From Billgrantia antri (lineage in GTDB: Bacteria; Pseudomonadota; Gammaproteobacteria; Pseudomonadales; Halomonadaceae), in contig NZ_JAHYCA010000002.1 in the NCBI RefSeq assembly GCF_019430905.1, forward strand, positions 124,001 through 188,000: a stretch of DNA of 64,000 nucleotides. Reading direction: 5' to 3'. The notes under the pieces were generated by a model that was not told the DNA's origin, made no database searches, and worked only from the letters and a program-made list of their open reading frames with translations. Positions 3,062 to 48,629 of this stretch are shown one piece after another (positions within the stretch are counted from its first letter, which is position 1; every line of letters begins with the position of its first letter). The position numbers and the translations under genes were made by a program.

Positions 3062-3492
3062 CGGGAAGCGGCACCCTTGTCGTCTTGGTCTTGGGGGGAG
3101 TCGGGTTCAGCGGTATCGCGGGCGTCGGCAAGAGCGTCGTCCAGGCGCGCCGCAGCCGGCTTGGGAGGCTCCTGCGCTTCATCCTGCCCCGGCACGGATT
3201 GAGCATCAGGTGACACTGTCGAAGACGATGGCGTTTCGGCGATGCTCTCGACGTCGCGCTTGGCCTTGTTCAGGCTCTCATCGAGCTTGGTCTGCTGCTC
3301 CTTGAGCTTCTGACGCAGCTCCTCCGCTTCGAGCTGCGAGTTGATCTCCCGCTGCATGCTCGACACGGTGCGCTTGATCTTGCCGACCCACAGTCCCACG
3401 GTGCGAGCCGCCTTGGGCAAGCGCTCCGGGCCGAGCACCAGCAACCCCACGATCCCGATGATCAGGAGTTCGAGAAAGCCGATATCGAACAT
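3058..3492 (-). CDS. tatB: Twin-arginine translocase subunit TatB
   Basis: A 144-residue protein with one N-terminal membrane helix (MFDIGFLELLIIGIVGLLVL), the conserved GPERLPKAARTVG hinge and an amphipathic helix rich in Lys and Glu, followed by a disordered acidic/proline tail. TatB forms the substrate-receptor complex with TatC. The Glu in the transmembrane segment (residue 8) distinguishes it from TatA. It lies 6 bp after tatA and overlaps tatC by 4 bp. Confidence 0.97.
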   Translation of the reverse strand: MFDIGFLELLIIGIVGLLVLGPERLPKAARTVGLWVGKIKRTVSSMQREINSQLEAEELRQKLKEQQTKLDESLNKAKRDVESIAETPSSSTVSPDAQSVPGQDEAQEPPKPAAARLDDALADARDTAEPDSPQDQDDKGAASR

Positions 3493-36739: not shown

Positions 36740-38053
<1,314 letters not shown>

Positions 38054-38097
38054 GCGCATCGTTTATGGCTACCGGCCGACGATATCGCTGACATTTT

Positions 38098-38115
38098 TGT
38101 AGGATATTGACTACA
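38098..38115 (+). promoter_or_regulatory. Possible GacA/UvrY-type upstream activating site
   Basis: TGTAGGATATTGACTACA is an 18-bp imperfect palindrome (TGTAG-N8-CTACA). It agrees at 9 of 12 fixed positions with the published GacA box TGTAAG-N6-CTTACA, which lies upstream of rsm/csr small-RNA genes. It sits about 120 bp before the proposed start of the RNA at 38221-38465, within the usual distance range. The eno terminator lies in between, so the site is not for eno. Confidence 0.35.
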
Positions 38116-38149
38116 AAAAGGCGAAGATCTAAGCCCGCATAGCTGCAAG

Positions 38150-38180
38150 AAGGTCGATACCAAAGGTGTCGGCCTTTTTT
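38150..38180 (+). terminator. Rho-independent terminator of eno
   Basis: A 12-bp stem with two G-U pairs (38150-38161 with 38165-38176), loop AAA, and six T residues ending at 38180. Confidence 0.88.
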
Positions 38181-38220
38181 AATTCCTTGTTTTTACTCAC
38201 TTTACGCAATGGGTTGTTAA

Positions 38221-38465
38221 CCTCGAGAAGGCCTCGAGGTTGTTTGGTGGCTGCTTGCGCCTGTTGGCGGACATGCCAGAATGCACGTGGGACAAGGCAG
38301 AGCGGGAGGCTCTCCGGCAGGATGCAACGGGATGCTATCTACATGGCACGCTCGGTGCGACAGGACGTCGCCTCCGGGCAGGGACGTTGCCGCAGGAGAG
38401 AGGGCGGAGGGAACCGCCCAAGGAAATGCTGGGAGCCGGGCGACCTGAGGGGTCGCCTTTTTTTT
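38221..38465 (+). ncRNA. rsmZ: CsrB/RsmZ-family small RNA candidate (CsrA sponge)
   Basis: This 497-bp gap between eno and fdxA has no plausible protein gene but a clear RNA signature. Twelve GGA triplets occur on the plus strand between 38269 and 38434, against two on the minus strand. Several are in loops: AGAGC-GGGAG-GCTCT (38299-38313), GCGAC-AGGAC-GTCGC (38357-38371), GGCA-GGGACGT-TGCC (38377-38391) and GGGCGG-AGGGAA-CCGCCC (38402-38419), the last a perfect ANGGAN hexaloop on a 6-bp stem, the canonical CsrA site. The RNA ends in a strong terminator. The 5' end is uncertain; a weak TTTACT-17-TGTTAA promoter would start it near 38227, and a CCTCGAG hairpin opens the region. Position next to fdxA and mutS matches rsmZ of Pseudomonas. 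Family membership is inferred, not searched. Confidence 0.8.
38439..38465 (+). terminator. Terminator of the CsrB/RsmZ-like RNA
   Basis: GGCGACC (38439-38445) pairs with GGTCGCC (38451-38457) over a 5-nt loop, followed directly by eight T residues (38458-38465). The T tract is only on the plus strand, which fixes the direction of transcription. Confidence 0.9.
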
Positions 38466-38550
38466 GCCCGGCGTTTGGCCTGGGCAGGCTCGCCAAGGCG
38501 CCGAATGCCGGCTGGCATGCGGCGCGGGAACAGGCCGGCTTGCGCTGCGC

Positions 38551-38874
38551 TCAGCGCTCGAGGTATTGCAGTTTGCCGGGCTTGCCGTCCCACTCCTCGG
38601 CATCGGCCGGGGGATCCTTCTTTTCCGCAATGTTGGGCCACACTTCGGAGAGTTCGGCATTGATGGCGATGAACTCCTCCTGCCCCTCGGGTAGTTCATC
38701 CTCCGAGAAGATTGCCTCGGCGGGGCACTCGGGCTCGCACAGGGCGCAATCGATGCACTCGTCCGGATGGATCACCAGAAAATTGGGGCCTTCGTAAAAG
38801 CAGTCCACCGGGCAGACCTCGACGCAGTCGGTGTACTTGCACTTGATGCAGTTTTCGGTGACGACAAAGGTCAT
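38551..38874 (-). CDS. fdxA: Seven-iron ferredoxin FdxA
   Basis: A 107-residue electron carrier with one 3Fe-4S and one 4Fe-4S cluster, like Azotobacter ferredoxin I. The cysteines fall as expected: Cys9, Cys17 and Cys50 for the 3Fe cluster, Cys21, Cys40, Cys43 and Cys46 for the 4Fe cluster, with Cys12 and Cys25 extra. The C-terminal extension of about 50 residues ([16 protein letters not shown]) is typical. It lies downstream of mutS on the same strand with a 223-bp gap. The physiological partner is not evident. Confidence 0.96.
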
Positions 38875-48428: not shown

Positions 48429-48629
48429 ATGCTCATCCTGACCCGCCGAGTCGGAGAAACGCTGATGATCGGTGATGACATCACCGTGACCGTCCTTGGC
48501 GTCAAGGGCAACCAGGTCCGCATTGGCGTCAATGCGCCGAAGGATGTCGCCGTACATCGTGAAGAGATCTATCAGCGCATTCAGCGCGAGAAGTCCGACG
48601 ACGATGGGGGGAGCAACCCCGCCTCGTGA
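48429..48629 (+). CDS. csrA: Carbon storage regulator CsrA
   Basis: A 66-residue RNA-binding dimer that blocks or activates translation at GGA-containing leaders. The key RNA-contact residues are present: Leu4 and Arg6 in the first strand ([11 protein letters not shown]) and Arg44 in VHREEIY. The Shine-Dalgarno sequence AAGGAG is strong. The 230-bp gap upstream of it holds TTACATAATG (near 48351-48360), a possible -10. Followed by tRNA-Ser and tRNA-Arg, as in Pseudomonas. Its activity is probably titrated by the GGA-rich RNA at 38221-38465. Confidence 0.98.

Follow-up and report, generated by a model that had tools for sequence, protein, structure and literature searches.

The window analysed here is a stretch of 64,000 nucleotides of the Billgrantia antri genome, and the question that it raises is what is encoded in the GGA-rich gap between eno and fdxA. 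A sequence-only reading had proposed a CsrB/RsmZ-type RNA next to fdxA, titrating the CsrA encoded about 10 kb further on. After comparison with homologous loci, we consider that positions 38289 to 38465 very probably specify an RsmZ-type, CsrA-sequestering RNA of the Halomonadaceae, which would be switched on by GacA and would free CsrA-repressed mRNAs. A sponge RNA is ordinary in principle, its kind being well known in related bacteria; the expansion of a second family of such RNAs in the same genome was unexpected.

Composition and borders of the element

The putative RNA gene lies between eno and fdxA, and this interval was inspected base by base (Table 1). The count of 12 GGA triplets on the plus strand vs. 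two on the minus strand (TCC) within 38269-38434 proved exact, and no second segment of 166 nt anywhere in the window reaches that number on either strand (maximum of nine on the other strand). The G content of the segment is 40%. Mononucleotide shuffles of it contained 6.1 GGA on average and reached 12 in 20 of 5000 cases; composition alone is therefore a weak argument, while conservation is a strong one.

Both the beginning of the RNA and its GGA content had to be corrected. The start had been placed at 38221, and was rejected because the hairpin at 38221-38239 is not conserved among the homologues listed in the gap alignment. Among these, the palindrome, the eno terminator, the promoter and the RNA form separate conserved blocks. 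The conserved promoter sets the predicted +1 at about 38289 (7 nt past the -10 element, where GGGA is usual). Consequently, the GGA at 38269 falls in the promoter spacer, outside the RNA, which holds 11 of the 12 triplets. The other border stood as described, a 7-bp hairpin followed by eight T residues.

Four ORFs of 100-185 aa overlap the segment. Each of the six reading frames is open throughout in merely 10-19 of the 33 homologues, and the net indel relative to the window is not a multiple of three in 18 of 32, in agreement with the earlier statement that no protein gene fits. Judged from sequence, the element is non-coding and has its own promoter and intrinsic terminator.

Table 1. Coordinates of the features at the eno-fdxA locus and of the related elements (window positions, unless a contig is given).
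Feature	Position	Strand	Remarks
eno, upstream neighbour	36761..38053	+	TIGR01060, 675.8 bits
GacA/UvrY-type upstream activating palindrome TGTAGG-N6-ACTACA	38098..38115	+	18 bp; centre 182.5 bp before predicted +1
Intrinsic terminator of eno	38150..38180	+	between palindrome and promoter
-35 element TTGCGC	38255..38260	+	promoter pattern found in 36/37
-10 element CAGAAT	38277..38282	+	CAGAAT, GAGAAT, CACAAT or CACACT in 36/37
Predicted RsmZ-type small RNA	38289..38465	+	about 177 nt, 11 GGA; terminator gives the end, promoter and conservation the start
5' hairpin AGAGC-GGGAG-GCTCT	38299..38313	+	helix 1; GGA in loop; stem covaries between species
Long hairpin	38344..38392	+	stem 38344-38348/38388-38392 and 38350-38355/38374-38379
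Long-hairpin tip GCGAC-AGGAC-GTCGC	38357..38371	+	GGA in loop
Hairpin GGGCGG-AGGGAA-CCGCCC	38402..38419	+	ANGGAN hexaloop; helix 4, 99.5% paired
Intrinsic terminator of the RNA	38439..38465	+	7-bp stem 38439-38457, eight T 38458-38465; helix 5, 96.6% paired
fdxA, convergent downstream neighbour	38551..38874	-	NF045490, 176.6 bits
csrA, presumed target	48429..48629	+	NF002469, 122.6 bits
R2 RNAs, array of four	C8:254987-256527 (1.6 kb)	-	R2 match
R2 RNA	C8:120376-120509		R2 match, outside training set
R2 RNAs, two	C9:83536-83675 and 90131-90267		R2 match

Conservation and fold

BLASTN of 38060-38480 against 58 genomes, among them the own genome, gave matches in 36, all within the genus (36 of 37, vs. 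0 of 21 in other genera). In the genus genome left over, G001, the gap contains a shorter, GGA-rich form of the element, which scored 79.9 bits with R1, a covariance model built from 33 RNAs with G001 excluded. Every one of the 37 genus genomes thus carries a homologue downstream of eno, detected by BLAST in 36 and by R1 in G001; as relatives, these genomes do not count as independent cases. Beyond the RNA, fdxA is convergent with it in all 35 genomes where it is visible; it is out of view at two loci where the contig stops, L006 and L034, the latter also with runs of N. Within the own genome, this locus is the single strong R1 match, the row after it having E 0.063.

R1 was also run, under stricter filters, on 390 genomes drawn from across the order. 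It matched, once each, 17 of the 18 family members in the resulting list, which leaves out 345 genomes without a match. The same search gave weak hits beyond the family, eight in number (E 4.6e-5 to 4.3e-4). As homologues, these were rejected: the six inspected (all except those in G204 and G353) lack fdxA, eno and the palindrome, contain 2-5 GGA, and were accordingly attributed to fortuitous resemblance of terminators and of the ends of coding regions. Nine loci named Halomonas, Salinicola, Modicisalibacter, Vreelandella, Larsenimonas or Cobetia were also searched; six match R1 (E 5.8e-13 or better), and no match was obtained at two Salinicola loci or at that of Modicisalibacter ilicicola. 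In Salinicola corii and S. tamaricis (L040, L041) eno is close to fdxA, with no R1 match between them.

The fold was derived from a plain MAFFT alignment (A1) of 33 of the 37 genus RNAs, from which three long forms (L030, L034, L037) and the promoterless L038 were left out. RNAalifold gave 36 pairs, 15 of them with changes on both sides, and the 5' hairpin was added by hand before the covariation test (38 pairs). In this consensus 93.0% of cells are paired and 20 of the 38 pairs changed on both sides (108 cells vs. 32.4 in shuffles). Related sequences can beat shuffles; here, on four of five measures none of 500 shuffles came up to the alignment, and on the fifth, the number of pair types, 4 of 500 did. 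Pairing fell to 38-51% when partners were slid by 1-3 columns, a control that flatters a consensus structure derived from the same sequences. The compensatory changes support the predicted fold of the RNA. Helices 2 and 3, which form the long hairpin, are 95.0 and 97.8% paired, with 10 of 16 pairs changed on both sides. Helix 1 is just 76.9% paired, which we attribute to its varying loop length and to alignment slips. The hairpin with the ANGGAN hexaloop, already pointed out from the window alone, is present in its entirety; its loop GGA occurs in 33 of 33 homologues and A-N-GGA is invariant in all of them.

Across the 33 homologues, 318 of 374 GGA triplets (85%) are wholly unpaired in the consensus fold, compared to 43% of all triplets, so that several are predicted to be exposed in loops or linkers. 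The median is 11 GGA per RNA, and eight GGA sites keep their alignment column in 31-33 of the 33 sequences. A near-invariant stretch at about 38315-38335 contains two of the triplets. Folding energy by itself is ordinary (relative to shuffles, z -1.92 for the RNA and -2.02 for the interval of the sequence-only reading), and the minimum-energy fold of the window's own RNA pairs the outer parts differently from the consensus.

Variants of the RNA were observed at several loci. The long forms (L030, L034 and L037, from G033, G035 and G029) have an insertion in the 5' half and 13-15 GGA, and measure 302-323 nt in the two with a visible terminator. In Larsenimonas suaedae the eno-fdxA gap is occupied by the fdxA-type RNA in four tandem copies (L073:2692-3409, minus strand), with a clear T-run in the last copy only and no good palindrome found; the array is possibly one long multi-unit sponge. 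In Cobetia amphilecti there are two R1-like units (L075:2720-2880 and 3280-3439, minus strand; 62.7 and 22.5 bits), and a perfect palindrome precedes the distal unit by 184.5 bp.

Promoter, regulation and relation to known RNAs

The promoter pattern was drawn up after inspection of the alignment, with spacers of 14-18 bp allowed; the spacer is 16 bp in all 36 genus homologues that have the pattern. The window palindrome agrees with the consensus at 11 of 12 positions, and the best upstream matches reach 10-12 of 12 in 36 of 36 homologues having the promoter. The palindrome pattern by itself is no evidence, since with at most one mismatch it occurs at 20 places in the own genome vs. 11 for a backwards-pattern control. 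A hairpin and T-run at the position of the eno terminator are present in the homologues listed in the gap alignment, except L038. The distance from palindrome to predicted +1 has a median of 182.5 bp (179.5-184.5 bp in 23 genomes, 191.5-198.5 bp in 13). Of these distances, 23 cluster near 182 bp and 13 near 194 bp, an offset of about 11 bp; a separation of about one helical turn suggests phasing and, the species being related, is a lead.

At eight Pseudomonas rsmZ genes located by Rfam, the palindrome is 171.5-183.5 bp upstream of the start, with a tie at one of them (L049), where an equally good match is 42.5 bp upstream. The centres of the csrB palindromes are given as -183/-182 in E. coli and -182/-181 in Salmonella (PMC4682653, excerpt). 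A palindrome-to-start distance of about 182 bp is common to the Halomonadaceae RNA, Pseudomonas rsmZ and enterobacterial csrB. In csrB, IHF has been proposed to bend the DNA between palindrome and promoter (PMC4682653, excerpt). An IHF-like site with at least 8 of 9 positions of the IHF consensus was found in this interval in 23 of 36 homologues vs. 15.7% of shuffles, often at the same place, but the window's own best match lies at a different one. An IHF site upstream of the RNA promoter is a lead only.

In the own genome gacA is directly before uvrC (NF007018, 289.1 bits, cut-off 280), and a GacA orthologue (70-100% identity) is encoded in 36 of 37 genus genomes. G001 (2.9 Mb, 99% complete) gave no GacA match at E <= 1e-30, and its uvrC has no gacA before it. 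The RNA of this genome (L038) was kept with its hairpins, yet without a recognisable palindrome or promoter. Thus gacA, palindrome and promoter are jointly absent in one genome, a single case; either another activator is at work there, or the RNA is in early decay. As for the presumed target, csrA is the sole PF02599 match in the own genome (G000), and CsrA is single in 35 of 37 genus genomes (none was found in two of 86-87% completeness).

The mechanism that we infer follows RsmZ and CsrB, where it is established. Phosphorylated GacA would bind the 18-bp palindrome 182 bp upstream and switch on the promoter at 38255-38282. The resulting RNA of about 177 nt, with some ten GGA motifs presented on its loops and linkers, would capture several CsrA dimers, and CsrA-repressed mRNAs would be freed by this titration.

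No Rfam family reached its gathering score at the window RNA, and the best score within the Csr clan was noise (RsmW, 13.9 bits, E 6.3). The three families against which a check had been suggested were all negative: RF00166 stayed short of its gathering score (44 bits), with no match up to E 10 in 38050-38560, and RF00018 (CsrB) and RF00195 (RsmY) fell short of theirs and gave no useful match at relaxed thresholds either. The window RNA is consequently not placed in RF00166. It does occupy an RF00166-type locus, antisense and downstream of fdxA with mutS beyond. In Pseudomonas, rsmZ had been said to lie beside fdxA; indeed, all eight of the Pseudomonas-named loci in a scan of 20 have an RF00166 match in the corresponding position and orientation. 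R1 gave weak antisense scores just past fdxA in 11 of 20 Pseudomonas-named loci (10.8-20.6 bits; 12 with L052, further out), and these were rejected as signs of homology, being no better than a stray match on the plus strand of L086 (22.1 bits). Position alone therefore counts, and sequence homology is not claimed. RsmZ-type RNA, the positional counterpart of rsmZ in the Halomonadaceae, is the fitting name. The neighbouring eno, fdxA, mutS, recA and csrA pass NCBIfam equivalog cut-offs. The supposed flanking order mutS-pncC-recA-recX stood in part: mutS and recA are confirmed at equivalog level, pncC passes the PncC domain model only, and recX is below the RecX cut-offs.

The window RNA and Pseudomonas RsmZ (RF00166) are alike in being convergent with an adjoining fdxA, with mutS beyond and a palindrome about 180 bp upstream, and in having many GGA in hairpins and an intrinsic terminator. 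They differ in length (177 nt vs. a model of 133 positions) and in that the window RNA has no RF00166 score. The E. coli and Salmonella CsrB RNAs have repeated GGA hairpins like the window RNA and are encoded at another genomic locus. The UvrY palindrome of CsrB (RF00018) is at a similar distance (PMC4682653, excerpt), whereas the window RNA is half as long (RF00018 model, 356 positions) and has no Rfam match. RsmZ of P. fluorescens SS101 is reported to have eight GGA, compared to 11 here, and the upstream neighbour here is eno, while rpoS is drawn in the Pseudomonas rsmZ region (PMC4353343, excerpt and figure legend). Pseudomonas RsmX and RsmY have the role proposed here; unlike them, the window RNA has a distant palindrome and no Rfam RsmY match.

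A GacS/GacA system governing quorum sensing has been reported for Halomonas anticariensis (PMC4187203, excerpt). In a 2020 table this species is listed with GacS-GacA and CsrA, controlling quorum sensing, exopolysaccharide and biofilm, and its antagonist RNA is given as 'Unknown' (PMC7366521, excerpt). The CsrA of Halomonas hydrothermalis is included in a 2026 preprint (PMC12889724, excerpt). No such RNA for Halomonas was found among the open papers listed for Halomonas or Chromohalobacter or in excerpts of PMC7366521, PMC12889724, PMC13414033, PMC6471967, PMC4187203 and PMC9049629, and a report in a subscription journal is possible. The RNA described here is a concrete candidate for this antagonist across the Halomonadaceae, and R1 provides a covariance model absent from the searched Rfam release. 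Halomonadaceae are in industrial use for the production of polyesters and ectoine.

Three other explanations were weighed. That the segment is a G-rich intergenic or coding remnant without a transcript, its GGA count an effect of composition, could draw on the G content, the shuffles that reach 12 GGA and the overlapping ORFs, but the compensatory changes, the conserved promoter and palindrome and the frame-breaking indels make it barely credible. A GacA-controlled RNA acting by base pairing with mRNAs, with incidental GGA, is very improbable. GacA does affect other small RNAs, such as Pseudomonas RgsA, which has one GGA, does not relieve hcnA repression and is under GacA control that is called indirect (PMC2375449, excerpt), and the near-invariant stretch could be a seed. 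However, the GGA triplets are the conserved part, located in loops and linkers of covarying hairpins, and that stretch itself includes two of them. The remaining alternative, compatible with the RsmZ-type reading, is that promoter and RNA are real but that the RNA is now a minor sponge in its clade, with other GGA-rich RNAs carrying the load. We regard this as unlikely: seven other such RNAs exist in the own genome, but the fdxA RNA is present throughout the genus, vs. strong second-family matches in 10 of 37 genomes. A CsrB/RsmZ-type RNA by fdxA remains the best reading, given its rsmZ place and strand, the palindrome distance, the compensatory changes, the single csrA and the joint absence in G001.

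A second family of GGA-rich RNAs

The palindrome search of the own genome led to GGA-rich RNAs on contig C8. A covariance model, R2, was built from 28 GGA-rich elements of eight genomes (alignment A3); 30 had been chosen by eye, and one in L144 and one in L160 were left out as another type. In the own genome R2 gave seven matches at E <= 4.2e-20, all outside the window. Matches in the eight A3 genomes are partly training data (six of these seven are in A3, C8:120376 is not). Four further rows had E 0.01-0.1, of which one is C1:278569 and three are partial matches on the opposite strand of genes already found. The second-family RNAs are about 135 nt long with CCGGGC-T type terminators. Five of the seven have a palindrome (11 of 12 positions) ahead of the 5' end of the R2 match, at 59.5-60.5 bp (three) or 83.5-84.5 bp (two); the other two have no palindrome as good within 250 bp.

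The ten genus genomes with strong R2 matches are the own genome and the nine most similar to it in the fdxA RNA. G012 has 11 full matches and one partial, and G000, G030 and G032 have seven each. Weak matches (E 2.1e-4 to 7.4e-4) were obtained in one more genus genome (G026) and in 3 of 21 from other genera. R2 also scored weakly on the window RNA (16.1 bits, E 0.0043) and on its fdxA-linked counterparts at many loci, with a highest score of 26.9 bits in L030. As such scores occur elsewhere too (L066, 21.4 bits), they do not establish that either family descends from the other.

On balance we favour, with some reserve, the view that one Halomonas clade multiplied its CsrA sponges, with eight in the own genome (the fdxA RNA and seven of about 135 nt) and twelve in G012 vs. 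one CsrA, in two layouts (palindrome at about -182, or about 60/84 bp before the model 5' end). If true, the twelve of G012 would top the sponge RNAs of Azotobacter vinelandii, of which nine (PMC7366521, excerpt) or eight (PMC9049629, excerpt) are given, and the clade would be a ready-made dosage series in which to study why the sponges, but not CsrA, increase in copy number. Copies of rsmX in tandem, controlled by GacA, have been described (PMC7911923, excerpt), an arrangement that the second family resembles.

The array of four RNAs (L144, G000:C8:254500-257600, minus strand) has in its vicinity a gene with a match to NF007621, a UmuD-type model. Inside it, a further GGA-rich element without R2 match was observed (L144:1194-1312, minus strand), with a similar element at L160:1599-1711; the former is perhaps a third RNA type.
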